Positions 27,166 to 46,602 of a DNA stretch of 50,271 bases are shown here, piece after piece. The notes under the pieces were generated by a model that saw only the letters and a list, made by a program, of their open reading frames with translations, was not told where the DNA came from and did not search any database. This stretch comes from Nitrospira sp. GTDB taxonomy: Bacteria; Nitrospirota; Nitrospiria; Nitrospirales; Nitrospiraceae. Every line of letters starts with the position of its first letter. Positions within the stretch are counted from its first letter, which is position 1. Both the position numbers and the translations under genes were made by a program. Location: the NCBI GenBank assembly GCA_020853775.1, contig JADYYH010000077.1:1-50271 (forward strand), written 5' to 3'.

Positions 27166-27255
27166 GGAGGTCGGTTGCCCGTTGTGGTCACTGTTTCAGG
27201 TGCGCGGCTGCATGCTATAGTACGCGTCTTTTGAACGCAACGAGTGAGGCATCTC

Positions 27256-28623
27256 ATGAAGCAGATCATGGTGGTCGGTGCTGGTTCGGTCGGTGGGTTC
27301 TTTGGGGCGCATCTCGCCAAGAACAATCCCCACGTGTCATTTCTTCTTCGGCCTCGCACGTTGGAAGCTGTGAAGCGGAACGGCCTCACGATTAGGAGCG
27401 CCAAGGGACATTTCACCGTCCATCCACCGGCCGCATCCGATCCCCGGCAACTGGCTGCCCCCGATCTCATCATCCTGGCCGTGAAGGCCTACGACCTCGA
27501 CGAGGTCATGACGCAGTTGGAACCGGTGCTGACGGATCGCACGGTCATTCTCACGCTGCAGAATGGCATCGATACCGAGGACCGCATTATTGCCCGCCTG
27601 CACCGCGACTGCGTGGTCGGCGGGGTGGCGTTCATCTATTCGAAGATCGTCGAGCCGGGTGTCATCGAGCATTACAAACGCGGCGGGGTCGCGATCGGGG
27701 AACTGATGGGACACAAGAGCGAACGACTCTCCCAGATTGCCGAGATTTTCAAGCAGGCGGGGATTTCCTGCCAATTGAGCGAGGACATCCGAAAAAGCAA
27801 ATGGGAGAAGATGTGCTGGAATTGTGTCTTCAATCCACTCACGGTAGTGATCGACGACAAGGTGGCGAAGGCGCTCGATCATCCCGAAATGGCCGGCGTG
27901 ATCCGGCAGATTGTCGGGGAAGTGGCAGCGGTGTCCGCGGCCGTGAAGGTCCCGCTGGCGCTGGACATGGCCGAGAAGGTGGTGAAGTGGACGCAAGAGC
28001 TGCGCGATATCCACACCTCGATGTATGACGATTGGAAAGCCAAACGCCCGACGGAGATCGACTATCTGAACGGCTACATCGTGCGGGTCGGGCGCGAATT
28101 GGGCATTCCTACACCGGTGAATGAAGCCCTGACGGCGATGGTGAAGACCATTACCGAAAAGGAACTGTCGGGACCTGGCATAGTCCGTATCGATGGCGCC
28201 GTCGTGCAGCCGATTTCATTGACCAGAACCGCGCTGGGACAATTGCCGCAGGAGCAACGGGTGGACGATATCAGTGAGGTGATGCCGTCCATGCGGGGCC
28301 GCGCCATCCGTGTGAAGGGCCTGTTGGAGATCCCGGCCCTCGCGGTGGATGCCGACCATGTGACCTTTCACTCCGTCGACGGCAAATATGCTGCGACCCT
28401 CACCTTGCAGCAGGCGCGGGACTTCGGGCTGCTTCTGTATGAACTTGACGGGCAACCTCTTCCGGACGGCAAGGGCGGGCCCTATCGCTTGGTCACGCCG
28501 GGCCTGGGCGACCTTTGCGCGAATGTGAAAGCGGTGGGACGCATCGAAGTGCGGGCCGGATCGGGAAAAGATACAAGGCCGGCCGTCCGACCGCCGGAAT
28601 GTGCGGTCGACGTGCAGGGGTGA
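27256..28623 (+). CDS. Ketopantoate reductase fused to a SUOX-fold molybdopterin-type domain
   Basis: From ATG 27256, 455 residues. Residues 1-305 are a PanE/ApbA reductase: MVVGAGSVGGFFGAHLA (NADP loop), catalytic Lys in RKSKWEKMCWNCVFNPLTVV, and Glu in PTEIDYLNGYIVRVGRELGI. Residues about 315-450 match the Oxidored_molyb (sulfite-oxidase) fold: RAIRVKGLLEI, HVTFHSVDGKYAATLTL, YELDGQPLPDGKGGPYRLVT and CANVKAVGRIEVR. The usual molybdenum-ligating Cys segment of the full-length enzyme is not present, so the domain may bind without oxidising. PanE makes pantoate for CoA; coaX lies 8 kb away. I know of no described fusion like this. Confidence 0.8.
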   Translation: MKQIMVVGAGSVGGFFGAHLAKNNPHVSFLLRPRTLEAVKRNGLTIRSAKGHFTVHPPAASDPRQLAAPDLIILAVKAYDLDEVMTQLEPVLTDRTVILTLQNGIDTEDRIIARLHRDCVVGGVAFIYSKIVEPGVIEHYKRGGVAIGELMGHKSERLSQIAEIFKQAGISCQLSEDIRKSKWEKMCWNCVFNPLTVVIDDKVAKALDHPEMAGVIRQIVGEVAAVSAAVKVPLALDMAEKVVKWTQELRDIHTSMYDDWKAKRPTEIDYLNGYIVRVGRELGIPTPVNEALTAMVKTITEKELSGPGIVRIDGAVVQPISLTRTALGQLPQEQRVDDISEVMPSMRGRAIRVKGLLEIPALAVDADHVTFHSVDGKYAATLTLQQARDFGLLLYELDGQPLPDGKGGPYRLVTPGLGDLCANVKAVGRIEVRAGSGKDTRPAVRPPECAVDVQG

Positions 28624-31704: not shown

Positions 31705-31930
31705 GCGGCCCTCCTGTGTGGACCAGAGACTACCCTGGCCTGGCGGAGGCGAATAGACCACCAGAGGTGGGGGGAGGCCTCCTGGCCTTGCTGCATGTCG
31801 AATCATGCGACGGGATGGAAACCGAAGCCCATGAGATTTCGGTGGAACGATCCGGGAGACGGGGCGGCTCTTGCTGGAAGGGCTGGTGAAGACCGGCGCC
31901 ACCAAAGCAGGCCGTCCGGGCGACTCTGCA

Positions 31931-32038
31931 TGGCGGAGAGGGTGGGCATTCGAAGTCGCGCATACGCGCTCCCACTGAGGGGGCCTGCCCCCTCGTGTCT
32001 CCCCACGCAGGGGAGTACCTCCCCCGCGATCCCTCTCG
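31931..32038 (-). ncRNA. tRNA-Ser-like relic or unusual tRNA-like RNA
   Basis: The minus strand reads an acceptor-like arm CGAGAGG (5', 32038-32032) that pairs 6 of 7 with CCTCTCC, followed by GCCA at 31931-31934. Between lie CTCCC-CTGCGTG-GGGAG (a 7-base loop with T at the position of U33; the next three bases are GCG), a long variable-arm-like hairpin GAGGGGG-CAGG-CCCCCTC, and a T-arm GTGGG ... TTCGAAT G CCCAC with 16 extra bases that contain GCGCGTATGCGC. The D-arm is not recognisable. The 3' 16 bases are identical to the 3' end of the tRNA-Ser gene at 32114. Probably a decayed copy; a functional role is open. Confidence 0.5.
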
Positions 32039-32054
32039 TTCGAATCCCACCGCC
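32039..32054 (+). repeat. tRNA T-loop-like fragment in inverted orientation
   Basis: TTCGAATCCCACCGCC is the T-loop and following 3' strand of a tRNA read on the plus strand. It touches the 5' end of the tRNA-like relic. With the relic's own T-loop it makes an inverted pair around 31932-32054. Confidence 0.5.
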
Positions 32055-32113
32055 TTAGCTAGCAATGGCAATTCGACTCGTACGCCTTCTCAAATCTTAC
32101 AGGGCACTTTCGG

Positions 32114-32201
<88 letters not shown>

Positions 32202-32349
32202 GCGCAAGGTCAGGCAAAGACGTGTAGCTTACCGTGGAGCGTTACGAGATTCAAATGAAATCATGAGGTTGAGTGGAATTTCTTTCACCACTACGGGAAA
32301 CCGTGGAGTCGGGGGGAAAGGTGATTCCATTTGGTGATGTCCCCATAAG

Positions 32350-32437
32350 GCCGTAGACTCACCTCGTACAGGACAGCCGGACGGAAACCGTCGTCAGACT
32401 TTGGATTTTCGAGAGGAAATCCGAATAAGTCTACGGC
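32350..32437 (+). ncRNA. Predicted structured leader RNA upstream of the NRPS
   Basis: GCCGTAGACT (32350-32359) and AGTCTACGGC (32428-32437) form a perfect 10-bp closing stem. Inside are two hairpins: GACGG-AAA-CCGTC (32380-32392) and GGATTT-TCGAGAGG-AAATCC (32403-32422), giving a three-way junction. The AGTCT strand could also pair with AGACT at 32396-32400, an alternative fold. It ends 45 bases before the NRPS start codon. It matches no riboswitch class that I can recall. It may be a cis-regulatory element of the cluster. Confidence 0.55.
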
Positions 32438-32482: not shown

Positions 32483-35400
32483 GTGGTCAGACATCCACCG
32501 GTCACTATTCCAGCCGGCGACACCATCCTTGATGTGCTGCGTTGGCGGGCTGAGCAGCAACCTGACCAGACAGCCTACACCTTTCTTCGGGAAGGGCTGA
32601 ACGCCGATGCCGTCCTGACGTATGGAGAGTTGGCGGCCCGCGCTCGTTCGATCGCCGTCTATTTGCACACCCGGTTTGCGCCGGGAGCGCGCCTCCTGCT
32701 GGTGTATCCGCCGGGGCTTGAGTTCGTGCAAGCCTTTTGGGGAACGCTCTACGCCGGCCTCATCGCCGTGCCGGCTCCGCATCCGGACGCATTCCGCATG
32801 AAAGCCGGCGTCATGCGTGTCCAACGCCTCGCCGAAGATTCGGGTGCCGCCGGCGCCTTGACCACATCCCAGTTGCTGGAAACGCTCCGGTCGCAGGAAA
32901 TCTCTCCCCCGTTAGGCCAGTGGGTCTCGACCGACCAGGCGCTTGCAGCCGATCCTTCGTGTTGGACCGACCGGCATCCGCAGTCTTTACACCTCGCGTA
33001 TCTGCAATATACCTCCGGCTCAACATCGGCCCCGAAAGGGGTGATGGTCAATCATGGGAACATGACTGCTCAGAGCCGGTGTATTACCGAGGCGGGTGGG
33101 TACGACGCCGGGTCGGTCACCCTGTCGTGGATGCCGCATTTTCATGACTATGGACTCGTGAAGGGCATCATTCAGCCTGCGTGGATCGGCCGTCCCTCCT
33201 ATCTCATGTCGCCGCTCACGTTCCTCAAACGTCCCTTACGCTGGCTCGAAGCCATTCAACGCTACGCGGTCACGCATAGCGGCGCGCCAAACTTTGCCTA
33301 TCGTCGATGTGTGGACGCGACGACGGCTGAGGAACGGGCAGGATTGGATCTTTCCGGTTGGCAGGTGGCGAGCTGTGGAGCAGAGCCTATCGCGCCGGAC
33401 ACCATCGAACGGTTTGCCGACGCGTTCGCGCCATCCGGTTTTCGGCGCGACGCCTTCTTTCCCGCCTATGGAATGGCGGAATACACGCTCCTGATTTCGT
33501 TAAAACGAGTCGGGGTGGCGCCGACCGTGACCACGCTGGATGCTGCAGCATTGGAGCAGGGCGCGGTGATCGACGCGCGCGCCGACGGAGGGCCGGTTCG
33601 GCGGGTGGTCGGATGCGGCATGCCCGTCGGCGATACGCGTGTGGTCATTGCGCATCCTGAGACGCGTTGCCGTTGCGCGCCGCAACAGGTCGGTGAAATC
33701 TGGTTGTCCGGCGCCAGCACGACGCAAGGCTATTGGAACAATCCCGACGAAACCGCGCGAACATTCGGCGCCAGACTCGCGGATACCGGAGACGGGCCGT
33801 TCTTACGAACCGGCGACCTCGGGTTTGTGAAGGACGGCGAAATCTTCGTGACGGGTCGGTTCAAAGATCTGCTGATCGTTCGAGGTCGAAACCATTATCC
33901 CCAGGATCTCGAGCGAACGGTCGAATCCTGTCATAGCCTGCTCAGATCAGGAGGCGCGGCCGCGTTCACGGTTGAGGAGGGCGGCGAAGAAGCCGTGGTG
34001 CTGGTCCAGGAACTGGAGCGTCAGGCAACGCCGTTCCCCACTGAGGACGTCGCCGCGGTCATACGTGCGGCCTTGTCGGAACAGCATGACCTCCATGTGT
34101 CGACCATCGTCTTCATTAAGGCCGGGAGCCTTCCCAAGACGTCGAGTGGGAAGGTGCAGCGGCGCGCCTGTCGAGAGCAGTATCTGGCAGACCGGTTATC
34201 GATCATCGGAACAAGCGTGGCGCCGCTTCCCGTTGGGCTGCCCTCTTCCACGGTCATTCAGGCGGACGCGTTGCAGGGACTTTCGGGGGAGGCACGCAGA
34301 CGGGCCATTCAGGAGACCGTGCAGAAGCTGTTGGCTGATCGTCTCGGTCGCATGCCCGACACCATCGCCGGTGATCAGCCGATCCATCTTCTGGGACTCG
34401 ACTCCTTGATGGCGGCAGACGTGCTGCATCGCCTGGAAGAATCGTTTCACCTGCCGCTGTCGCTCTCTTCGCTTCTGGGCGGCGCGACACCGGCTGATCT
34501 GACGACGACGATTGAATGCGGGCTGGCCGGCGACCCGCTCTGCGAGCCCGAGGCTAATTTTTCGGATGCCGCTGCGAGGACGGTATTCCCGTTGTCCGAA
34601 AACCAGGCAGCCCTATGGTTTTTAAGTCAGTTGGATCCCGCCAGCGCCGCGGCCAATGTGTCCCTGTTGTTGCCTCTGCCGTCCGACGTGACAGCGGACC
34701 GGTTGCGAGCCGCGCTGGAAGAAATCGGCGAACAGCAGGCCATGCTGCGCACCACCTTCGAGACGCAGCAGGATGTACCGGTTCAACGAATCCATCAGCG
34801 GATGCCAATGAGTTGGAGCGAGATCGACAGCTCCGCGTGGGACTGGCGCCGGTTACGGCAGGAGACCGTGAAGGCTGCGGCGGTCCCGTTCACCCTGACG
34901 CAGGGCCCTTTATGGCGAGCGGTTCTGTTTCATGGCGGACCGAAGAACTGGTTGCTGTTGATCGCCCACCATATCGTCGTGGACGGCTGGTCGATGATGC
35001 AGGTGGTCGATGATCTGAAGCGGCGCTGTGGATCTGCTGGCGCGAGTCGTTCAGAGCCTTCCTCTCGGCCTCAGGACCTTTCCGCAACCTACAGTGAATT
35101 CGTCGAGTGGCATCGGGCCATCCTGGATGGGGAGGAGGGCCGTCGACAGGCGCAGTACTGGAAGGCGAAGCTGGCCGGTGAGTTGCCGAATTACGACATG
35201 CTGTACGACCGGCCTGAGACCACGGTTGAGCCAGGGCACTATGCCTGGCATACATTCCAGATTGAGGGCGACCTGACTCGCCGCCTGCAAGCATTTGCCC
35301 AGACCGAGGGCGCGACGTTGTATGCCGTCTGCCTGACCGCCCTCCAAGTCTTGCTCACTCGCTACACGGCTCAAGAGGATACGGCAGTCGTCACGCCGGT

Positions 35401-38400
35401 CTTCGGCCGTAGCCGGGCTCGATTCGCCCACACGGTTGGTGACTTTGTAAACATGCTCGTCCTGCGGGAGAGCCTGCAGCCGGAGTCCACCGTTCATGAG
35501 CTGTTGGCACAGACGAAGCAGACGCTATTAGACGCGCTGGCCCATCAAGAGTATCCCTATGCGCGGTTGGTGGCAGACAGACGATCGGCTCGTCAAGGCC
35601 CGCGAGCGCCCTTGGCGCAAGTGCTGTTCGTGTTGCAGCCGTTCAAGCTGTTGGCGGAACTCGACTTGCGGATGAATGCATCCCCGGCTGCTGCGCCAGA
35701 CGGTCGATTGCCCGCGTGGGACGCCTATGTCATTCCACAACAGAGCGGCCAATTCGATCTCTGTATCGAGCTCGCTGAATCGGACCAGGGGTTGAGCGGG
35801 TATGTCGAATATAAGGATGCCCTCTTTGACGCGGAGCGGATCGAGCGCATGCAGGAGCATTACGTGCGTCTGCTGGAGGAGCTGGTCAGCCATCCATCCG
35901 CCGGCATCGGCAGCCTGCCGCTCATGTCCGAAGCGGAAATGCAGCAGACCGTGCTGGCATGGGGACAATCCTCCGCCACGGCGGAGCCTGAGCTGTGCCT
36001 CCATCGCATGATCGAAGCGCAGGCCCGACTGACTCCCGAGGCCATTGCGGTCGAACAGGAGGGGCAGTCGCTGACCTATCGGGAATTGGATGCGCGTTCA
36101 AATCAAGTCGCCCATTACCTCCGCCGTCGTGGCGTCGAACCGGGTGTCGTCGTCGGGCTCTGTCTTGAGCGTTCGCTCAATTTGATCGTGGGCATGCTCG
36201 GCATTCTGAAGTCGGGCGGGGCCTATCTGCCGTTGGATGCCGATTATCCGACCGAACGGTTGGAGTACATGCTGCGGGACAGCCAGGTGCGCGTGCTGGT
36301 CACTCAGCAGGATCAGCTCGTGCGGCTGCCCGCCACGAATGCCCATACGATCTGCCTCGATTCGGAATGGGCACAGATTGCGAAGTGTCCCGAGAGCGCC
36401 ATCGCGGGCACTGATGCCTTGGACAATCTGGCCTATGTCATCTACACGTCAGGGTCCACAGGGCATCCGAAGGGGGTGATGATCGAGCATCGATCGATCG
36501 TCAACTATGTGCGAGCCTTCACAGAAATCGTCGACCTGACGGGGCGAGATCGGGTCCTGCAATTTGCCTCGTTGAGTTTTGACACGGCTGCTGAAGAAAT
36601 CTTTCCCTGTCTATCTGCCGGGGCGACATTGGTGCTGCGCACGGCGACGATGGTGGATTCGGTTTCCGGTTTTCTGGATCGCTGCCGTGATGTGACCGTG
36701 ACGGTCCTGGATCTCCCCACGGCCTACTGGCATGAGCTGGTGACCCGGATGGCATTGGAGCAGATCCCGTTTCCTTCGTCCGTCAGAATCGTAATCATCG
36801 GTGGCGAGCGAGTGCTTCCGCAGATCGTGCAGTGCTGGACCAACCTGATCGGGACGGCCGTTCGATTGACTAATACCTATGGGCCGACAGAAACGACCGT
36901 CGCAGCGACCTGGTCGGAGTTGACCGGTCTGGGGGCGGACAATGACATCGTCGGCGACTTACCGATCGGGCGCCCCATTGCTCATGCCTCCGCTTATGTG
37001 TTGGATCGGAATCAACGGCCGGTTCCCGTGGGCGTGGCGGGAGAGCTCTATATCGGTGGCCTTGGAGTCGCGCGCGGCTATCGGGGGAGGCCGGAGCTTA
37101 CCGCGGCCAAATTCATCCCCGATTCTTTTTCCACTCTCCCGGGAGCGCGGCTGTATCGCACCGGTGACCTCGTGCGATGGCGACCGGACGGGCAATTGGA
37201 TTATCGAGGCCGTGCCGATCGCCAGGTCAAGATTCGCGGGTATCGGATCGAGTTGGAAGAAATCGAGGCCGTCCTGAACCGGCATCCGGATCTGGAACGG
37301 GCCGTGGTCGAAGTACGGGAAGATCAGCCGGGGGATAAGCGGATTGTGGCGTTCATGGTGCCACGTCCGAATAACCGTCTCGGATTGGGGCAATTGCGCG
37401 AGCAGCTTCGCAGCCAGTTGCCGGCGCATATGATTCCGTCGACCTTCATCGAGTTGGAAACGCTGCCGCTGACCGTCAACGGCAAAGTGGATCGAAAAGC
37501 GCTGCACGTCGCGGCGGACAGTCGCGCCAGCAAGGTCGAATTGACCTCCGAGTTCCTTGCTCCCCGGACGCCCACGGAACAGGTGCTCGCCGATATCTGG
37601 GGAGAAATCCTCCAGATCAAGGATGTCGGCGTGCATGATCACTTCTTTGAACTGGGGGGACATAGTCTGCTCGCCACACAACTCGTGTCGAGGGTCCAAT
37701 CCTTGTTCCGGATCACACTGCCGCTGCGGCAGATCTTCGAGCGTCCGACCATTGCCACCTTGGCCGAAGTGATCACCCAGGCCCAGGCCGGCGAAAAGCC
37801 GCTTCAAGAGCAGTGCGGCTATGTAATCATACGCGCCAACAGGGGAACGCCGCTGCCACTGTCATTTGCGCAGGAGCGGATGTGGTTCCTCTATCAACTT
37901 TCACCCGAAGCCGCCGCCTACAATATTCCGGCCAGCGTCCGTTTGCATGGCCCGCTCAACAAACCAGCGCTGCGATGGGCAGTCGGCGAACTGGTTCGGC
38001 GCCATGACGCGCTCCGGACGACCTTTGCTCACGTGGATGGTCAGCCGCGTCAGATCATTCACGATGTCTTGGACCCGATCTGGACGGACGAAGACTTGCG
38101 TGGAGTGCCGGCCGAACTCCGTGAGGCGCGAGCGCTGGAGCTCGCGACGGCGGAGGCGCGCCGACCGTTCAACTTGGAGCAGGGGCCGCTCCTGCGCGTC
38201 TTCTTGATTCAGCTGGGGGATGAAGATCACGTCGTGATCTTGAACACGCATCACATCATTTCCGATCAATGGTCCTATGGGATCGTCGCGCGCGAACTCG
38301 TCACGTCCTACAATGCGTTTTGTGCAGGGAGGCCGTTTGCCGTTCAACCCGATCTCGCCATTCAGTATGCGGACTTCGCGCAGTGGCAGCGGGGATGGCT

Positions 38401-41400
38401 CACCGGTCCTATGCTGGACGCACAACTCGCGCATTGGACGTCGAAACTCACCGACTTACCCGTCGTGACCTTGCCGACCGACCGCCCGCGTCTGCCGGTC
38501 CATTCCTTCAAGGGCGATCATGTCTCGGTGGACCTGTCCTGGTCGCTGGTCAATCGTCTCAAGCAACTGAGCGTGCGCGAAGGGGTCACGCTCTACATGG
38601 TGTTCCTGGCTGGATTCTTCGGGCTGCTCCATCGTCTTACGCAACAGAAAGACCTGGTCATCGGCACACCGATCGCCAACCGTAACCGGCTCGAGATCGA
38701 GGAACTGATCGGGACCTTCGTCAATACGCTGGTGTTGCGAACGGACGTTACGAGCGAGCTGACGTTCCGGGACTTGTTGCGCAAGGTGCGGGATCTGTCG
38801 CTCGACGCCTATGCGCACCAGGACATCCCATTTGAGAAGCTCGTGGAAGAATTGCGGCCGGATCGCAGTCAGGGTGGCTTGCCGCTGGTGCAGGTGCTGT
38901 TCAACTTCGCCAATACGCCCTTTGCCCGCACCGAGTTTCACCAGCTCTCCTGGACTCCCTATGAAGTGAGCCGCGGCGCAGCCCAACTCGATCTGGGTCT
39001 CTCCATCGATCCGTACGCGTCGCGAAAAGCCTACTTGGAATTTAATACGGACCTGTTCGATCGTGTCTCCGCCGAGCGTTGGATTGCTCAGTATCGGCAG
39101 CTGATGGAAGCGGTGGCCGAACATCCCGAAGGAGCACTCGGGCGCGTGTCGATTCTCAGCGGGCAAGAACAACATCGTATGTTGCTCGAATGGAATGCGA
39201 CCGACCGACTGGTCGATGACGGGATGTGCTTTTACCAATTGTTCGAGGCGCAGGTCAGTCGGACGCCGGATGCTGTCGCCGTGCTGTTTGAAGGGCGCGA
39301 ATGGTCGTATGCGGAGTTGAATCGTCGCGCCAACCGGTTAGCGCATCGCCTGCGTGAGTGCGGTGTCGGGCCGGATGCCGTGGTGCCGGTCTTTTTGGAG
39401 CGCTCGCCGGATCTGCTGATCAGCCTCCTGGCAGTCATGAAAGCAGGTGGTGCCTATTTGCCGCTGGTGCCGGGATTGCCGATACGAAGGCTGGCAGCGA
39501 TGATCGAGGCGAGTCATGCCGCGGTGGTGATCACCGATTCCGCCCTGCTGGGCGGCCTGCCTCAGCATCAGCTCCCTGTTCTGTGCGTGGATCAGGAGGC
39601 GGCGGCTTTGGCGCGTCAGCCGGAGGAGAATCCCGCACCGCTGTCCGGGCCGGAGCATCTGGTGTACGTACTGTTCACCTCCGGGTCGACCGGCCATCCC
39701 AAGGGGGTCGAGATCGAGCATCGTGCGCTGCTGAACTTTCTCCGCTCCATGCAGCAAGAGCCGGGCATCACGGCTCGCGATGTCCTCGTGGCCATCACCC
39801 CGCTCTCCTTCGATATCGCAGGGCTGGAACTCTATCTTCCCCTTCTGGCTGGCGCCACCATCGTCCTGGCGAACCGGCAGCAGGCGATGGACGGAGCCTG
39901 GCTGCAACGTGAACTCGATCACGGTGCCGTGACGATGCTGCAAGCGACTCCCGCTACCTGGCGCATGATTCTACAGTTTGGCTGGAACGGTGGACGCGGG
40001 GTCAAAGTCTTGTGTGGAGGGGAATCCCTGCCGCGCGAATTGGCGCAGGAGCTGCTGACACGAGCCGGATCCGTTTGGAACGTCTATGGGCCGACCGAAA
40101 CCACGATATGGTCGACCCTGGAACGGGTACGGAGCGCTGAACGGACCATTTCTCTGGGGCGTCCGATCGCCAACACACAGGTCTACGTCCTGGATGCCAA
40201 CCTCGAGCCGGTCCCGGTCGGGATACCGGGCGAATTGTATATCGGTGGGATGGGGTTGGCCAGGGGCTACAGGGGGCAGCCTCAGTTGACGGCGGAGCGC
40301 TTCATCTCCAATCCATTCCGGACTGGTGAACGACTCTATCGCACTGGCGACCAGGTGAAATGGTTGCCTGACGGGCGGCTGGACTACGTCGGCCGAATCG
40401 ACCACCAGGTCAAATTGCGCGGGTTCCGGATCGAGCTGGGCGAAATTGAATCGGTGTTGGGCAATGAGCCGACTGTGAAACAGGCCGTCGTGATTGTGCG
40501 GGAAGATGCGCCGGGCGACAAACGTCTGGTGGCCTATGTGGCGGCGCGGGAGGGGAGTGCTTGTGATCCATCCAGCCTTCGCCGGATGCTGCGAGAGGTG
40601 CTTCCGGATTACATGGTGCCGGCTGCCATCGTTCCGCTCACGGAGTTTCCGCTTACGCCCAACGGGAAAGTGGATCGCGCGTCCCTGCCGGCACCGAACG
40701 CCGAGCCGGTGCACGACGGGGCTCAGGCCATCGAACCTCGAAATCGGGTGGAGCTGCAGCTGGTAGCGATTTGGGAACAGGTGTTAGGCATGACGCCGAT
40801 TGGTGTGCGCGATAACTTCTTTGCGCTCGGCGGGTATTCACTACTGGCGCTGCGCATGTTCAGCGCGATCGAACAGACCTTCGGCACACGACTGCCCATG
40901 GCAGTGTTGTTCCAGGCGCCGACCATCGAGCAATTGGCGGATGTCCTGACCGATGAAGGATGTACGGTACGATGGCGTTCCCTGGTGGCGATTCAGCCTG
41001 AGGGGAAACGACCGCCGTTGTTTGCCGTGCCCGGGGTCGGGGGCAATGTGCTCGTGTTTGCACGTCTCGCCAAATTGCTGGGCGACAACCAACCCTTCTA
41101 TGGATTGCAGGCCCGCGGGCTCGATGGCAAGGAAAAGCCGTTCATGCGGGTGGAAGAGATGGCGGCGCATTACATCGAAGAGATTCGGTCGGTGCAGCCG
41201 CATGGTCCCTATTTCATCGGAGGCACCTGCACGGGCGGGCTGGCCGCCTATGAGATCGCGCAGCAACTCACGGCGCAAGGGGAAGACGTTATTCTAGCCG
41301 TCATGGAATCCTGGCATCCACGATCCTACCTGAATCACTGGAGCCGCCCGCCCTATTTGTTGTGGCCGTTGCTCTTTGTGTGGATGAAAGTGACGACCTA

Positions 41401-41842
41401 CCTTCGGCTCATGCGCCGGTTGCCCGCGCGTGACTGGGCGGCGTTCTGGAAGGGAAAGTTGAAACGCATGTGGAATCTCATGCACCATACCGAAGCCGCC
41501 GAACATCAGGACGAATTCTTGTATAAAGACCAGGTCACCTATGCGACCTTCCATGCCGTGGCACGGTACGATCTGAAACCCTTCCGTGGACAGGTGTTGA
41601 ACGTGATTGCATCCAAACATCCGCTCACGAATTCCAGCGATGACACGCGGCTGGTCTTCGGTGAGTGGGCGATGGGCATGAGCCGGACGATCTATCTTCC
41701 GGCGGAGGATTCGGGACGCTTGTTCGTGGCGCCACATGTCCAAGAATTGGCTCGTCACCTCAAGGCGTTTTGGCATGAGGCGGAAACCATGCGCAAACGG
41801 CCTGATGGCCAGGGTGACGGATCCAGCACGAAGGCTGCGTAG
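32483..41842 (+). CDS. Hybrid FAAL-NRPS: FAAL-ACP-C-A-T-C-A-T-TE
   Basis: 3119 residues. Domains: fatty acyl-AMP ligase 10-575 (YTSGSTSAPKG; GRFKDLLIVRGRNHYPQDLE); ACP 605-680 (LGLDSL, Ser641); C1 700-1150 (HHIVVDG, His830, Asp834); A1 1170-1670; T1 1690-1765 (LGGHSL, Ser1728); C2 1790-2240 (HHIISDQ); A2 2250-2745; T2 2750-2830 (LGGYSL, Ser2786); thioesterase 2840-3100 (GGTCTGG, Cys2916). A1 reads DTEDIGTVAK at the ten specificity positions, A2 DILQLGVIWK, close to the classic glycine code. It should activate a fatty acid without CoA, add two residues and release an acyl-X-Gly product. No epimerase. The GTG start has only a weak ribosome site. Confidence 0.95.
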   Translation: MVRHPPVTIPAGDTILDVLRWRAEQQPDQTAYTFLREGLNADAVLTYGELAARARSIAVYLHTRFAPGARLLLVYPPGLEFVQAFWGTLYAGLIAVPAPHPDAFRMKAGVMRVQRLAEDSGAAGALTTSQLLETLRSQEISPPLGQWVSTDQALAADPSCWTDRHPQSLHLAYLQYTSGSTSAPKGVMVNHGNMTAQSRCITEAGGYDAGSVTLSWMPHFHDYGLVKGIIQPAWIGRPSYLMSPLTFLKRPLRWLEAIQRYAVTHSGAPNFAYRRCVDATTAEERAGLDLSGWQVASCGAEPIAPDTIERFADAFAPSGFRRDAFFPAYGMAEYTLLISLKRVGVAPTVTTLDAAALEQGAVIDARADGGPVRRVVGCGMPVGDTRVVIAHPETRCRCAPQQVGEIWLSGASTTQGYWNNPDETARTFGARLADTGDGPFLRTGDLGFVKDGEIFVTGRFKDLLIVRGRNHYPQDLERTVESCHSLLRSGGAAAFTVEEGGEEAVVLVQELERQATPFPTEDVAAVIRAALSEQHDLHVSTIVFIKAGSLPKTSSGKVQRRACREQYLADRLSIIGTSVAPLPVGLPSSTVIQADALQGLSGEARRRAIQETVQKLLADRLGRMPDTIAGDQPIHLLGLDSLMAADVLHRLEESFHLPLSLSSLLGGATPADLTTTIECGLAGDPLCEPEANFSDAAARTVFPLSENQAALWFLSQLDPASAAANVSLLLPLPSDVTADRLRAALEEIGEQQAMLRTTFETQQDVPVQRIHQRMPMSWSEIDSSAWDWRRLRQETVKAAAVPFTLTQGPLWRAVLFHGGPKNWLLLIAHHIVVDGWSMMQVVDDLKRRCGSAGASRSEPSSRPQDLSATYSEFVEWHRAILDGEEGRRQAQYWKAKLAGELPNYDMLYDRPETTVEPGHYAWHTFQIEGDLTRRLQAFAQTEGATLYAVCLTALQVLLTRYTAQEDTAVVTPVFGRSRARFAHTVGDFVNMLVLRESLQPESTVHELLAQTKQTLLDALAHQEYPYARLVADRRSARQGPRAPLAQVLFVLQPFKLLAELDLRMNASPAAAPDGRLPAWDAYVIPQQSGQFDLCIELAESDQGLSGYVEYKDALFDAERIERMQEHYVRLLEELVSHPSAGIGSLPLMSEAEMQQTVLAWGQSSATAEPELCLHRMIEAQARLTPEAIAVEQEGQSLTYRELDARSNQVAHYLRRRGVEPGVVVGLCLERSLNLIVGMLGILKSGGAYLPLDADYPTERLEYMLRDSQVRVLVTQQDQLVRLPATNAHTICLDSEWAQIAKCPESAIAGTDALDNLAYVIYTSGSTGHPKGVMIEHRSIVNYVRAFTEIVDLTGRDRVLQFASLSFDTAAEEIFPCLSAGATLVLRTATMVDSVSGFLDRCRDVTVTVLDLPTAYWHELVTRMALEQIPFPSSVRIVIIGGERVLPQIVQCWTNLIGTAVRLTNTYGPTETTVAATWSELTGLGADNDIVGDLPIGRPIAHASAYVLDRNQRPVPVGVAGELYIGGLGVARGYRGRPELTAAKFIPDSFSTLPGARLYRTGDLVRWRPDGQLDYRGRADRQVKIRGYRIELEEIEAVLNRHPDLERAVVEVREDQPGDKRIVAFMVPRPNNRLGLGQLREQLRSQLPAHMIPSTFIELETLPLTVNGKVDRKALHVAADSRASKVELTSEFLAPRTPTEQVLADIWGEILQIKDVGVHDHFFELGGHSLLATQLVSRVQSLFRITLPLRQIFERPTIATLAEVITQAQAGEKPLQEQCGYVIIRANRGTPLPLSFAQERMWFLYQLSPEAAAYNIPASVRLHGPLNKPALRWAVGELVRRHDALRTTFAHVDGQPRQIIHDVLDPIWTDEDLRGVPAELREARALELATAEARRPFNLEQGPLLRVFLIQLGDEDHVVILNTHHIISDQWSYGIVARELVTSYNAFCAGRPFAVQPDLAIQYADFAQWQRGWLTGPMLDAQLAHWTSKLTDLPVVTLPTDRPRLPVHSFKGDHVSVDLSWSLVNRLKQLSVREGVTLYMVFLAGFFGLLHRLTQQKDLVIGTPIANRNRLEIEELIGTFVNTLVLRTDVTSELTFRDLLRKVRDLSLDAYAHQDIPFEKLVEELRPDRSQGGLPLVQVLFNFANTPFARTEFHQLSWTPYEVSRGAAQLDLGLSIDPYASRKAYLEFNTDLFDRVSAERWIAQYRQLMEAVAEHPEGALGRVSILSGQEQHRMLLEWNATDRLVDDGMCFYQLFEAQVSRTPDAVAVLFEGREWSYAELNRRANRLAHRLRECGVGPDAVVPVFLERSPDLLISLLAVMKAGGAYLPLVPGLPIRRLAAMIEASHAAVVITDSALLGGLPQHQLPVLCVDQEAAALARQPEENPAPLSGPEHLVYVLFTSGSTGHPKGVEIEHRALLNFLRSMQQEPGITARDVLVAITPLSFDIAGLELYLPLLAGATIVLANRQQAMDGAWLQRELDHGAVTMLQATPATWRMILQFGWNGGRGVKVLCGGESLPRELAQELLTRAGSVWNVYGPTETTIWSTLERVRSAERTISLGRPIANTQVYVLDANLEPVPVGIPGELYIGGMGLARGYRGQPQLTAERFISNPFRTGERLYRTGDQVKWLPDGRLDYVGRIDHQVKLRGFRIELGEIESVLGNEPTVKQAVVIVREDAPGDKRLVAYVAAREGSACDPSSLRRMLREVLPDYMVPAAIVPLTEFPLTPNGKVDRASLPAPNAEPVHDGAQAIEPRNRVELQLVAIWEQVLGMTPIGVRDNFFALGGYSLLALRMFSAIEQTFGTRLPMAVLFQAPTIEQLADVLTDEGCTVRWRSLVAIQPEGKRPPLFAVPGVGGNVLVFARLAKLLGDNQPFYGLQARGLDGKEKPFMRVEEMAAHYIEEIRSVQPHGPYFIGGTCTGGLAAYEIAQQLTAQGEDVILAVMESWHPRSYLNHWSRPPYLLWPLLFVWMKVTTYLRLMRRLPARDWAAFWKGKLKRMWNLMHHTEAAEHQDEFLYKDQVTYATFHAVARYDLKPFRGQVLNVIASKHPLTNSSDDTRLVFGEWAMGMSRTIYLPAEDSGRLFVAPHVQELARHLKAFWHEAETMRKRPDGQGDGSSTKAA

Positions 41843-41894
41843 CGCCTCCCGCGATTCCAGCCCATGAGTTTCCGCACCCGAAAGCGACGACACG

Positions 41895-43592
41895 ATGATA
41901 AAAATGTACCGGTTCCTCCTCTTCCTGCTGCGCGACGCCAGAACCATGATGGTCCTCATGGTCCTGACCGGGCTGTTGGCCGGCCTCTCCAGTGTGGGCT
42001 TGCTGGCGGTGATCAACAAGCTTATCAACGGAGCCGGAACCACCTCGGAATTGTTTGCAGCGGCATTTATCGGGTTGGCCGTACTCAAAGTCGGATCAAA
42101 TTATCTCTCCCAGCTCTTGCTGGTCACCTTCGCGCAAAAGACCATCCTCAAATTGGGCATGGATCTGTGCTGGAAAGTCGTGCGGGCGCCCTATCGCACC
42201 CTGGAGCGCCGCGGGCCGCATGAAATTCTTGCGACGCTGACGGACGACACGAACGCCCTGGCCTGGGCGGTGAACGGCTTGCCCGGCTTGGCCATCAATG
42301 TCGCGATCCTGACGGGCTGCTCCCTCTACCTCGCCTGGTTGTCCTGGCAAGCGTTTCTGGGAGTCGTCGTGCTCGCCGTGTTGGGGCTGCTGGGTTATCG
42401 TCAGCTCTACAACCGGGTGCTGCAGTCGTCATTGGCCGTACGCGATTCAAAGGGCATCCTCTTCGAACATTTCCGGAGTCTGACGGAAGGCATGAAGGAA
42501 CTCATGCTGCATCGAGGACGCCGGGAGACGTTCGTCGAAGAGGATATCCGGCAGGCGGCCGACGCATTGCGACGTCATAACCTGACCACGACCAAACAAT
42601 ACCTCGTGACGGATTCCTGGACGCAGGTGCTGTTCTATGGCCTGATCGGCGTCATCCTGCTGCTCTTTCCACGATTTCTTGCGTTGTCAGGTGAATCGCT
42701 GACCGGGTATGCGTTTGCCATGCTCTATATGATCGGTCCGATGTGGGGCTTGCTGGGCATGGTGCCGACGCTGAGCCGTGGGCAGGTGGCGTTGGAAAAG
42801 ATTGAATCGCTGGGGCTCGCACTGGATGAGGGTGGTCGGGAAGACGGTGCGGAGCGACCCGTGGCGCAGGGGAGCCACTGCGTGGAATTTTCCCGGGCGT
42901 TGTTTGCCTATGAGTCAAAAGGCGAGGACGAACGCTCGTTCAGCTTAGGGCCGTTGGATCTGTCGATTCGCCCGGGTGAACTCGTCTTCATTATCGGAGG
43001 GAACGGCAGCGGCAAGTCGACGTTTGTGAAAGTGCTCACGGGCCTCTATCTGCCGCAACAGGGACAGGTGGCATTGAACGGTGAGGTGATCACGCCGGCG
43101 ACTCAGGATTGGTACCGGCAGCATTTTGCCGCGGTCTTCTCGGATTTTTATCTGTTCAAAAAACTGCTGGGTCTCGACCCTTCGCTCGTCGCCAGTCAGG
43201 CAGAGGGCTGGTTGAAGACGCTCCGGATTGATCACAAAGTCAGCATTGAACAGGGTGAATATTCCACGGTCAATCTGTCGCAAGGGCAACGAAAGCGCCT
43301 GGCCCTCGTGACCGCGATGCTGGAAGACCGGCCGTTTTATGTCTTCGATGAATGGGCTGCCGATCAGGACCCTCAATATAAGGACGTGTTTTACGGCGAG
43401 TTGTTGCCGAATCTCAGGGCCCGCGGGAAAGGGGTCATTGTGGTGACGCACGATGACCGGTATTTTCATGTGGGTGACCGCGTGTTAAAACTGGATGACG
43501 GACGAATCGTCGAGGCCTCAACCGGCGCCGCCTTCAGCGCCACGCACCGTCCTGCGCCCCTCTTGAAACCGGTGGCCCGGTCATCGGCGTAA
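41895..43592 (+). CDS. SyrD/PvdE-type peptide-export ABC transporter
   Basis: 565 residues: a six-helix permease half fused to an ATPase. The N-terminal membrane domain (from MYRFLLFLLRDARTMMVLMVLTG) contains FEHFRSLTEGMKELMLHRGRR, typical of the cyclic-peptide export group (SyrD, PvdE). The ATPase has Walker A GGNGSGKST, signature LSQGQRKRLAL, Walker B FYVFDEWAADQDP and the switch His in VVTHDDRYFHVGD. It is likely to move the NRPS product across the inner membrane as a homodimer. It starts 52 bases after the NRPS stop and reads in the same operon. Confidence 0.92.
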   Translation: MIKMYRFLLFLLRDARTMMVLMVLTGLLAGLSSVGLLAVINKLINGAGTTSELFAAAFIGLAVLKVGSNYLSQLLLVTFAQKTILKLGMDLCWKVVRAPYRTLERRGPHEILATLTDDTNALAWAVNGLPGLAINVAILTGCSLYLAWLSWQAFLGVVVLAVLGLLGYRQLYNRVLQSSLAVRDSKGILFEHFRSLTEGMKELMLHRGRRETFVEEDIRQAADALRRHNLTTTKQYLVTDSWTQVLFYGLIGVILLLFPRFLALSGESLTGYAFAMLYMIGPMWGLLGMVPTLSRGQVALEKIESLGLALDEGGREDGAERPVAQGSHCVEFSRALFAYESKGEDERSFSLGPLDLSIRPGELVFIIGGNGSGKSTFVKVLTGLYLPQQGQVALNGEVITPATQDWYRQHFAAVFSDFYLFKKLLGLDPSLVASQAEGWLKTLRIDHKVSIEQGEYSTVNLSQGQRKRLALVTAMLEDRPFYVFDEWAADQDPQYKDVFYGELLPNLRARGKGVIVVTHDDRYFHVGDRVLKLDDGRIVEASTGAAFSATHRPAPLLKPVARSSA

Positions 43593-43620
43593 TCGAGTTG
43601 CTGCCTTTCATCTCAGGCCA

Positions 43621-44388
43621 ATGATGTCGCGTGTGCCCGATCCCATGGTCCCATCCCCCTCGTTTCCCGTTCTTGATCCACAAGCAGTCCATGTCTGGTT
43701 CTGCGAACTGTCGCGCCATGTCGAGTGCCAGACTGCCTTTGTCGCAGAGCTTTCTGACGAGGAGCGGGCCCGCGCGGCCCGATTTGCGTTTGAGCGCGAT
43801 CGTCAACGCTTCATCCTCTCGCATGGATTGCTGCGACGGGTGCTGTCCCGGTACATGCCCATCACAGCGCAAGCCATTCAATTTGGCACAGGGGAGCATG
43901 GAAAACCGACCCTCAGTGGTCCGGCAGGCCCTTCTGACGACCTCCGGTTCAGCCTCTCCCATTCTGCAGAATATGCGCTGATAGCCGTGGCGCGTGGACG
44001 GGAGGTCGGAGTCGATGTCGAAGTGCGCAAGGCGAACCTGGACTGTCTCAAACTGGCCGAACGATTCTTTGCGCCGGCGGAAGCGCAGGCGATGGCCACG
44101 CTTCACGGGGACGCGCAGCAGCGCCTGTTTTACCGCTTGTGGACGGCGAAAGAGGCCTACCTCAAAGGGCGCGGTGTGGGGCTGTCATTCGGCTTGGAGC
44201 GATTCGAAATCATGTTCGAGGGGGAATCATCTGCTGCGCGCGTGCGGCTGAGAGGCTCGGGAACCGTCGATCAGACGTGGAAGATCCGGTCGTTGCCGCT
44301 GCCGGATCACCTGGCGGGTGCGGTGGCCGTGGCAGGTGGTGACGGGGATGTACATCGCTACGACGCGGCGGCCTTCTTTCTCGCTTAA
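43621..44388 (+). CDS. Sfp-type 4'-phosphopantetheinyl transferase
   Basis: 255 residues with GKPTLSGPAGPSDDLRFSLSH, GVDVEVRKANLD (Mg-binding Asp/Glu) and RLWTAKEAYLKGRGVGLSF (W-x-x-KEA-x-x-K signature). It transfers phosphopantetheine from CoA to the Ser of the ACP and T domains, so it would prime Ser641, Ser1728 and Ser2786 of the NRPS. Third gene of the cluster, 28 bases after the exporter. Its stop overlaps that of tadA on the opposite strand. Confidence 0.94.
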   Translation: MMSRVPDPMVPSPSFPVLDPQAVHVWFCELSRHVECQTAFVAELSDEERARAARFAFERDRQRFILSHGLLRRVLSRYMPITAQAIQFGTGEHGKPTLSGPAGPSDDLRFSLSHSAEYALIAVARGREVGVDVEVRKANLDCLKLAERFFAPAEAQAMATLHGDAQQRLFYRLWTAKEAYLKGRGVGLSFGLERFEIMFEGESSAARVRLRGSGTVDQTWKIRSLPLPDHLAGAVAVAGGDGDVHRYDAAAFFLA

Positions 44389-44873
44389 CCCGACTTCTTC
44401 TGTGCCGCCTCTTTCCTCAGTCCTCGAAAAAAATCCTGCAACAGGGCCTGGCTCTCTTCCGCGCAGAGACCTCCGACGACGTCGACGCGATGATTCAGCC
44501 TCGGCTCCGGAGGAATATCCATGATGGATCCGCATGCCCCGGCTTTCGGATCGAGGGCTCCGAACACCAGACGGGGAATGCGGGCCAAGACGATCGCCCC
44601 GATGCACATCGTGCATGGTTCCAACGTGACATAGAGCGTGCTTTCGGTGAGGCGCCAGCTGTTCGTCTGCCTGGCTGCTTCTCGAATGACGAGGAGCTCC
44701 GCGTGGGCGGTGGGATCCTGATCGGTTTCCCGTAGATTGTGGGCTCGGGCGATGACAACCCCATCGCGGACCAGCAGGGCGGCGATGGGCACTTCGCCGA
44801 TCAGTGTGGCCTTTCGCGCAAGGCTGAGGGCTTCTTGCATGAACTGTCTATCGAGCTCGTCGGGCAACGGCAT
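44385..44873 (-). CDS. tadA: tRNA-specific adenosine deaminase
   Basis: 162 residues from ATG 44873 (MPLPDELDRQFMQEALSLAR); an in-frame start at 44930 would add 19 residues without a better ribosome site. The deaminase zinc site is HAEL ... PCTMC, with VPIAALLVRDG, TLYVTLEPCTMC, GALDPKAGACG and NHRVDVVGGLCAEE. It converts A34 to inosine in tRNA-Arg(ACG), an essential activity in most bacteria. The 3' end overlaps the PPTase gene. Confidence 0.95.
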   Translation of the reverse strand: MPLPDELDRQFMQEALSLARKATLIGEVPIAALLVRDGVVIARAHNLRETDQDPTAHAELLVIREAARQTNSWRLTESTLYVTLEPCTMCIGAIVLARIPRLVFGALDPKAGACGSIMDIPPEPRLNHRVDVVGGLCAEESQALLQDFFRGLRKEAAQKKSG

Positions 44874-44983
44874 GGTGTCGTGACGGATTCCTGCCAGCGT
44901 GGGAGCGCTTCGTCCCGTATCGACAGGCATGCTAGCATGTTTGGGCCGGGAACCGCAGGAGAGGGGCGTCGAGGGATTGAAGG

Positions 44984-46000
44984 CTAGATCTGACCGATCA
45001 GATAGATGGCGCCTGTCGGTTCAGGGCGTCCGCCGTCCGGCTCCACGGTCACGGCGAATTTCTTCATGCGGGGAAACTCACCCATATTTTTAATAAGCAT
45101 GCGGGCCTTCTGGCCTGCGTCCAGGCCAAACACACCAGCGCTGACCGGTTTCTCATCGATTGCCCAGAGTTGATACACCTTCCCGCTCGGAAGGGCCGGC
45201 AGGTTGAAGGCATAGAGCCAGGCCTTCTTGGTTGCCGGATCAAAGAGCAGGAAGGCGCCCGCCGATTTTGCCATGTCGGAGCCGGACAGGGAGACGACTT
45301 TCGACGCAGGATTTTTGAATAGCGCGGCAAATTCTTCACTCTGCCGGGCGAGCCGTTGCAATGAGCTTTCATGCTGGGTCAGTTGCGTATGGGCATCGTC
45401 CAGCTCGGCTTCCCGTTGCAGCAATTGATCCCGGAGTTCGGCCACTTCGGTCGTGCGTTGGTCCAGGTCAGATTTCAACCCGTCCAGGGTCTGCTCGCGT
45501 TGGCGGAGTTCCGATTGCAGGCTTGCGACGCGCGACGTCTCCTGTTGGACCGCGGCTTGCAGCTGCTGGATTTCGCCGGAGCGTTGAGCCGTCCGGGTGT
45601 AATTCATCCAGGCAAGATATCCGCCTCCGAACAGAATCACGACGGCCGCGAATCCCATGGCAAAACGGAACGGCAGAGAACGGGCCGGCGTGATGGGAGG
45701 AAACAGATGATTCATCCATTCGCCCGGTTCCAGGCTCGATCGGGGACCCGGCTGTTCCGGTTCCGCATGGCTCGCGGTGGAAGCCGGCGCCATCAGGATC
45801 TTGGCTTTCAACGTATTGGGAGGCGTGGCGGGCGTGAGACCGAACGGCAGCAGCGAGGCCACGGTTTGGTAGTCCTTCAAGGCGGCATGACAGGCCGCGC
45901 AGCCGGACAGGAGATGCGCTTCGATCGCCTGCCGCTCGGAGCGTTCGAGGGCGCCGATCGCATAGAGGGGAACCGCTTCTTCCAGTTCCTCGTGTGTCAT
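44984..46000 (-). CDS. RskA-type anti-sigma factor with a periplasmic coiled coil
   Basis: 338 residues. The N-terminal zinc-associated anti-sigma region has EAHLLSGCAACHAALKDYQ (HxxxCxxC). One transmembrane helix (about 112-133, FAMGFAAVVILFGGGYLAW) follows. A periplasmic coiled coil (about 145-225, SGEIQQLQAAVQQETSRVAS onward) precedes the C-terminal RskA domain (LYAFNLPALPSGKVYQLWAI, FAVTVEPDGGRPEPTGAIYL). It holds the ECF sigma factor at the membrane until an envelope signal releases it. The start overlaps the sigma gene stop by ATGA. The coiled coil is much longer than in mycobacterial RskA. Confidence 0.9.
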   Translation of the reverse strand: MTHEELEEAVPLYAIGALERSERQAIEAHLLSGCAACHAALKDYQTVASLLPFGLTPATPPNTLKAKILMAPASTASHAEPEQPGPRSSLEPGEWMNHLFPPITPARSLPFRFAMGFAAVVILFGGGYLAWMNYTRTAQRSGEIQQLQAAVQQETSRVASLQSELRQREQTLDGLKSDLDQRTTEVAELRDQLLQREAELDDAHTQLTQHESSLQRLARQSEEFAALFKNPASKVVSLSGSDMAKSAGAFLLFDPATKKAWLYAFNLPALPSGKVYQLWAIDEKPVSAGVFGLDAGQKARMLIKNMGEFPRMKKFAVTVEPDGGRPEPTGAIYLIGQI

Positions 46001-46602
46001 AGCTGATGACCCTGCGGCAGCGTCTCGTGCAACGAGGCGCGGAGTTTCGACATGGCAAGCTTGATTCTTGTCTTCACAGTGCCCAACGGCTGATTCAATT
46101 TCGCGGCGATCTCCGTATGCGTCAGCCCTTGATAAAAGGCCATTTCAATCGCCTGTTGCTGCGGAAGGGGCAGATCCAGAATGGCCTTGGCCATCAACTG
46201 GCGCATTTCCGTATCTTCCCTGGCCTCATACGGATTCGGACTGACATCGGGCGTGACCGACACCAGCGGGTGCTCGAACGAGTCGGCGACGACATGCTGG
46301 CCGCGCGAGGCACGGGAGCGCAGCCGGTCGATCGCGCGACTACGGGTGAGGGTGACCAGCCAGGCGATGGGGCTTCCGCGACCGACATCGTATTTGGCGA
46401 TTTTCCGCCAGACTTCGAGGTAGACGTCCTGAAGCAGTTCCGCCGCTTCGTCGCGATCGTTGAGGATACGGTAGGCCAGGGTAAAGAGCAGGGTGGATGA
46501 TTGATCGTAGAGCTGGCCGAATGCCTGTTGATCACCCTTCGCCACGCGGGCCAGGAGTTTGGGCTCAATCGCGGATGCAGCTTGTCGGGGAGCGGATTCC
46601 AT
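45997..46602 (-). CDS. ECF sigma factor (SigK-like group)
   Basis: 201 residues. Region 2 is FGQLYDQSSTLLFTLAYRIL with DRDEAAELLQDVYLEVWRKI and SPIAWLVTLTRSRAIDRLRS. Region 4 is LPLPQQQAIEMAFYQGLTHTEIAAKLNQPLGTVKTRIKLAMSKL. The pair with an RskA-type anti-sigma factor places it in the SigK-like group (ECF19). A TATAGT on the minus strand (46656-46651) about 50 bases upstream could be a basal promoter; I see no clear -35. Targets are unknown; such pairs usually regulate themselves. Confidence 0.92.
   Translation of the reverse strand: MESAPRQAASAIEPKLLARVAKGDQQAFGQLYDQSSTLLFTLAYRILNDRDEAAELLQDVYLEVWRKIAKYDVGRGSPIAWLVTLTRSRAIDRLRSRASRGQHVVADSFEHPLVSVTPDVSPNPYEAREDTEMRQLMAKAILDLPLPQQQAIEMAFYQGLTHTEIAAKLNQPLGTVKTRIKLAMSKLRASLHETLPQGHQL

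Follow-up and report, generated by a model that had tools for sequence, protein, structure and literature searches.

The closest described relatives of the pathway reported here are FAAL-initiated lipopeptide NRPSs, such as that for puwainaphycin, and olefin-synthase-type FAAL-ACP loading systems. They share the same fused FAAL-ACP loading unit followed by NRPS extension, and the review that treats them contains no Nitrospira example (PMC11837247). Products consisting of a fatty acid and two residues likewise have precedents in barnesin A and salamandamide; these differ in their origin, which is an NRPS-PKS with vinylogous Arg in one case and shunting from a long assembly line in the other (PMC13096860, PMC12038845). 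Thioesterase (TE) domains with a Cys nucleophile are found in AB3403 of Acinetobacter (PDB 4zxh), which ends in C-A-T-TE, and in ObiF and SulM, which shift the TE acid yet retain the catalytic His (PMC6668435, PMC11298585). Nitrospira are major nitrite oxidizers in water treatment and soils, and their small molecules are little known. In the activated-sludge MAGs of one study, no nitrifier genus other than Nitrospira carried NRPS clusters, and the authors described the biosynthetic potential of the genus as uninvestigated (PMC9765116). Such clusters have been counted before; in the literature searched, we found neither a product of a Nitrospira NRPS cluster nor a characterized cluster with the domain order and codes described below. 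A lipodipeptide that is near-core, and whose masses form a predictable family, would offer a metabolite that can be tested for throughout the group.

We analyzed a 50,271-nt stretch of DNA (hereafter, the window) from a Nitrospira genome of 4.25 Mb in 121 contigs, which is most closely related to Nitrospira MAGs from the N. defluvii group; the chromosome of N. defluvii itself (FP929003; L018) is among these relatives. A sequence-only reading had proposed that positions 32483–44388 hold a self-contained three-gene lipodipeptide cluster composed of a synthetase, a peptide-type exporter, and the cluster's own 4'-phosphopantetheinyl transferase (PPTase). The locus comprises the following features:

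32114..32201, minus strand: tRNA-Ser(CGA), the left-hand landmark
32321..32363, plus strand: candidate promoter, a conserved upstream stretch, GTGATTCC...CCGTAGACTCACC (alignment of nine orthologues)
32483..41842, plus strand: NRPS synthetase, FAAL-ACP-C-A-T-C-A-T-TE, 3119 aa, GTG start (Pfam, NCBIfam)
41895..43592, plus strand: ABC exporter, 565 aa, TIGR01194 (PvdE/SyrD-type; NCBIfam)
43621..44388, plus strand: Sfp/HetI-type PPTase, 255 aa (Pfam, NCBIfam)
44385..44930, minus strand: deaminase, right landmark of the locus (synteny)

Much of the earlier proposal held, although it overlooked the missing His of the Cys TE, the invariance of the glycine module, the exchange of module 1, and how close to core the genes are in the genus. 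The three ORFs lie on the plus strand, are separated by gaps of 52 and 28 bp, and contain neither stops nor frameshifts; Pfam, NCBIfam, and matches to solved FAALs agree on the proposed 3119-residue domain string; and two C-A-T modules with no tailoring gene inside the unit are what an N-acylated two-residue product would call for. The GTG start of the synthetase sits inside a block conserved at the nucleotide level among orthologues. Further upstream, the strongly conserved stretch at 32321–32363 looks like a promoter of an unfamiliar type: its GTGATTCC half occurs once in the window against 0.01 expected, while its CCGTAGACTCACC half, taken alone, is at chance level there. The motif is not repeated before the neighboring ECF sigma gene, and promoter and terminator scans yielded nothing useful. 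An ARAGORN tmRNA call at 31712–32206 was rejected; it overlaps the tRNA-Ser, the only one of the pair to reach the Rfam gathering score.

The synthetase contains three AMP-binding, two condensation, three PP-binding, and one thioesterase domain (Pfam, NCBIfam), and its condensation domains are the only two in the genome. Its domains are arranged as follows, all on the plus strand:

32510..34228, plus strand: fatty acyl-AMP ligase (FAAL) loading domain (best matches the solved FAALs 7r7f, 3kxw, and FadD23)
34316..34510, plus strand: ACP (PF00550)
34580..35947, plus strand: C1 condensation domain, HHIVVDG intact (PF00668, motif)
35996..37525, plus strand: A1 adenylation domain, pocket code DTEDIGTVA, with a basic, Lys/Arg-like substrate predicted (1AMU numbering)
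37580..37774, plus strand: T1 carrier (PF00550)
37853..39181, plus strand: C2 condensation domain, HHIISDQWS with Gln replacing Gly (PF00668, motif)
39221..40675, plus strand: A2 adenylation domain, code DILQLGVIW (glycine; pocket code)
40757..40948, plus strand: T2 carrier (PF00550)
40991..41839, plus strand: thioesterase-fold domain (alignments, AlphaFold2 model)

Among NCBIfam models, the first adenylating domain matches those of FAALs best (PRK05850, PRK09192, FadD32) and an ACP follows it, as expected of a FAAL rather than an acyl-CoA ligase. The remainder reads as a FAAL-initiated NRPS: both C-A-T modules are complete, each condensation domain keeps both His residues, the adenylation codes are readable, and the carriers are present. 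The Gln for Gly in C2 recurs in all relatives as HHxx(S/G)DQWS, including a Gammaproteobacteria relative (L021), with Tyr at this position in L106. Relative to the described FAAL-initiated synthetases, this one is distinguished by having only two modules in one protein, no tailoring, a fixed Gly end, and a Cys TE that lacks the canonical His.

We read the adenylation pockets by PheA numbering, using a procedure verified on 1AMU. A2 has the code DILQLG(V/M/L)(I/V)W in each complete synthetase that was read, whichever of the sampled genera it came from, and published Gly codes include DILQLGMIWK (PMC12283262); by this measure, module 2 carries an invariant glycine code. The A1 code, DTEDIGTVA, is found in 15 of 16 complete g1 synthetases, the window's included (L110 has DTEDVGTVA), and in the fragment L007. 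It has D235, E239, D278, G301, and V330 in common with published Lys and Arg codes. The best single-A-domain PDB relative of A1 is ApnA A1 (531 bits); only linear gramicidin synthase chains with two A domains, whose bits are summed over two stretches, rank above it. Since the module-1 code is printed in no paper of the literature searched, and no exact match to it was found there, a basic, Lys/Arg-like A1 substrate is a prediction. In other genera, module 1 reads DGTV(I/V)AEVW, DALFIGAVA, or a proline-like DVQFIAHVA, and in G059 (L106) it is missing altogether, while the Gly module, TE, exporter, and PPTase are all kept; the product of this FAAL-C-A(Gly)-T-TE protein should be plain N-acylglycine. 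With A2 fixed on Gly and module 1 varied, the conserved logic appears to be acyl-X-Gly, with X exchanged.

The exporter passes the TIGR01194 'cyclic peptide export' model at 461.3 bits (cut-off 286.2), in keeping with the peptide-type assignment, and belongs to the same family, above cut-off, as PvdE, SyrD, and YojI (PRK10522), the last being its nearest equivalog model. When we searched 175 family genomes with it, close copies appeared in 27 of the 28 other same-genus genomes, and the single genome without a match is 66% complete and in 600 contigs. A diverged FAAL-two-module-TE protein with exporter and PPTase also occurs at loci from other genera. With the TE as bait, 91 of the 175 genomes match, although the match in G046 belongs to a different synthetase; the 91 include 29 of the 61 genomes that are AMO-positive (comammox). 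Matches outside the family, in a wider sample of the phylum, are few and weak. The dN/dS of the synthetase domains ranges from 0.02 to 0.43 and is lowest in T2 and the TE. Orthologues of the same layout in dozens of genomes, under purifying selection, exclude chance, bear out the conserved synteny anticipated from the window, and make the two-gene unit of synthetase and exporter near-core in the N. defluvii group. Export is not universal: at 15 loci read from one clade (placed by tree), the PPTase adjoins the synthetase with no exporter next to them. At another locus (G029:C52), the exporter frame contains one in-frame TGA, which may reflect a pseudogene or a sequencing error.

The PPTase is of the predicted Sfp-type family, having the Sfp size, two halves, and the ACPS domain (PF01648 and PF22624). 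The claim that it is the cluster's own was not supported. The source genome encodes no other PF01648 protein, and AcpS (TIGR00516) has no match there at E values up to 10 (control genomes were positive). Exactly one PF01648 PPTase is encoded by almost every one of the 164 positive genomes of the family, single-contig ones included. As the genome encodes stand-alone carrier proteins besides the synthetase's three, this sole PPTase must prime those as well, the fatty-acid ACP among them. HetI-type enzymes are known as the sole PPTase of the cell in cyanobacteria, and HetI is the best NCBIfam equivalog match here (179 bits, below the cut-off of 370); the Nitrospira enzyme is likewise a sole PPTase, but one that adjoins an NRPS gene.

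Relatives that lack the cluster show the site without it. The order DUF2779 gene, tRNA-Ser(CGA), PPTase, deaminase, RskA is found in G121, G157, G139, G158, and G008 (where one flank gene was not detected), and, without RskA, on a short contig of G007. The window keeps this order, interrupted only by the synthetase and exporter. The PPTase therefore stays in place where the other two genes are absent, and the pathway proper consists of two genes that adjoin a housekeeping gene, rather than a self-contained set of three. A recent mobile island at the tRNA is unsupported, given the flat composition and the use of the same site in several genera. In some g15 genomes (L100, L105, L107, L117), the synthetase and the sole PPTase have relocated together, so their linkage may be useful to the cell. 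With one PPTase common to a specialized pathway and an essential function, deletions in the operon may be lethal through polarity.

The TE warranted separate attention. Pfam's Thioesterase match covers its first half only, but an AlphaFold2 model (21 sequences; mean pLDDT 71) adopts the alpha/beta hydrolase TE fold by structural comparison, with VIA Z scores of 22 (7crn), 21 (NocB), and 20 (AB3403). Alignments placed its key residues:

41228..41230, plus strand: codon of the Cys nucleophile
41306..41308, plus strand: codon of the acid, Glu
41315..41317, plus strand: codon of the WHP His
41711..41713, plus strand: codon of Ser at the canonical His position

The nucleophile motif is GTCTGG, with Cys in all 36 aligned members. 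The acid after strand 6 is Glu or Asp; in the one clade whose loci lack an adjacent exporter, it has become Asn, as though release might be tied to the exporter. The His that follows the last strand of canonical type I NRPS TEs (GDH/GNH/PGxH) is absent; all members of the family have Ser, Ala, or Thr in its column, as do a Rokubacteria relative, a Gammaproteobacteria relative, and two sister-family loci. Comparison TEs in the same alignment (L023, L024, L025, L041, L043, L130–L132) have His there, within PGDH, PGTH, PGNH, or PGVH. As aligned, the TE thus keeps its Cys nucleophile and has lost the canonical catalytic His. Even so, few domains are as tightly constrained as this one (dN/dS 0.03–0.10, mostly 0.03–0.05), raising the question of how a domain without the textbook base frees its product. 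We considered the WHP His, which lies beside the acid and at first looks invariant, as a replacement base, but three loci carry Leu or Gln in its place, so it is not a sure substitute.

Described Cys TEs differ on this point. AB3403 has the same module order and GxCxGG motif and a closely matching TE fold, but it belongs to a system of separate proteins and is described as having its TE Asp in the usual position (PMC6668435), whereas the Nitrospira His column holds Ser, Ala, or Thr. ObiF and SulM have in common with the Nitrospira TE a Cys nucleophile, a small product, and a rearranged triad. In these enzymes, the acid follows beta-7 and the His follows beta-8; in Nitrospira, an acid-like Glu, Asp, or Asn follows beta-6 and the His is gone, which makes the release step here unusual and simple hydrolytic release not assured. 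A phrase search of the literature, a weak test, found no other NRPS TE lacking this His. Tentatively, and with low confidence, we raise the possibility that the domain is a release domain of a new kind, a Cys-only acyl-transfer station that would hand N-acyl-X-Gly to a separate acceptor or partner—a small amine, a thiol, a lipid, or the exporter.

Taken together, we consider it likely that this two-gene unit, beside the cell's sole PPTase, makes an exported cationic N-acyl-(Lys/Arg)-Gly lipodipeptide; in more general terms, its probable output is an exported fatty acid that bears two amino acids, the second of which is glycine. In the proposed pathway, the general PPTase would prime the synthetase's carriers, the FAAL would adenylate a free fatty acid and load the ACP, C1 would couple the acyl group to the basic amino acid selected by A1, and C2 would append glycine supplied by A2. 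From T2, the chain would then move onto the terminal domain's Cys and be released, and the TIGR01194 protein would carry the lipodipeptide across the inner membrane. The exported product may serve as a surface lipid, surfactant, or signal.

Other readings of the product and its role must be weighed against this one. One is that the product serves the outer envelope as a structural, cationic lipid, with a role like that of ornithine lipids and the ABC protein acting as a flippase rather than exporting a diffusible metabolite. This strikes us as somewhat unlikely, though several features favor it: near-core status in the genus, strong constraint on the genome's only NRPS, a single fatty chain with a small charged head group, and an exporter that also scores on MsbA (145 bits, below that model's cut-off). 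The exporter's family is nonetheless one of peptide exporters, it is missing beside the synthetase in one clade, and the specificity of module 1 varies by genus (basic, Pro-like, or other), more as in a specialized metabolite. That the unit is present throughout the genus points to a steady role, and that module 1 differs from one genus to another points to a specialized one; a diffusible cationic lipodipeptide and a surface lipid both fit the evidence. No neighboring gene indicates a role. We think it unlikely that the TE instead releases a small cyclic lipopeptide, closing the ring on, for instance, the side chain of Lys or a hydroxyl of the fatty acid. The ring-closing ObiF and SulM also use Cys, and the nearest fold match, 7crn, is a cyclizing TE; yet those two enzymes retain the His lost here, and the Nitrospira TE persists both where module 1 is Pro-like, offering no side-chain amine, and in G059, where module 1 is missing.

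The remaining alternatives concern the boundaries of the unit and iron. A dedicated three-gene cluster acquired as a unit with its own PPTase to make a secondary metabolite would account for three co-directional genes with short gaps, and for the PPTase still adjoining the synthetase at the relocated g15 loci. With one PPTase per genome nearly throughout, no AcpS in the window's genome, and the deaminase adjoining the PPTase in cluster-free genera too, we regard it as improbable. PvdE-type exporters serve siderophore pathways, and a siderophore fragment was among the products initially suggested; because acyl-(basic)-Gly lacks a strong iron ligand set, and the neighboring genes that were read provide no hydroxylase, no catechol or hydroxamate chemistry, and no receptor, we give a siderophore, or a fragment of one, very little credence. 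The cationic N-acyl-(Lys/Arg)-Gly lipodipeptide remains our preferred product.

Several further observations concern the relatives and surroundings of the locus. In other Nitrospira (L062, L064, L075, L108, L109, L111), there is also a FAAL-C-A-T cluster unrelated to this one, in which a large partner protein and a separate TIGR01194-like exporter (41–45% identical) are encoded, the module code being mostly DVENIGSIT; this type is absent from the window's genome. In synthetases with a DGTV-type module 1 (L096–L101, L103–L105, L107), the C1 motif reads HRxxxDGW, the second, normally catalytic His being replaced by Arg. An ECF sigma factor and an RskA-like anti-sigma factor (45997–46602 and 44984–46000, minus strand) adjoin the locus across genera, even where there is no synthetase. 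On the other side, a single plus-strand ORF (27244–28620) joins a ketopantoate reductase (PanE/ApbA) to a C-terminal molybdopterin oxidoreductase-type domain (PF00174), and this neighbor is conserved in other genera.
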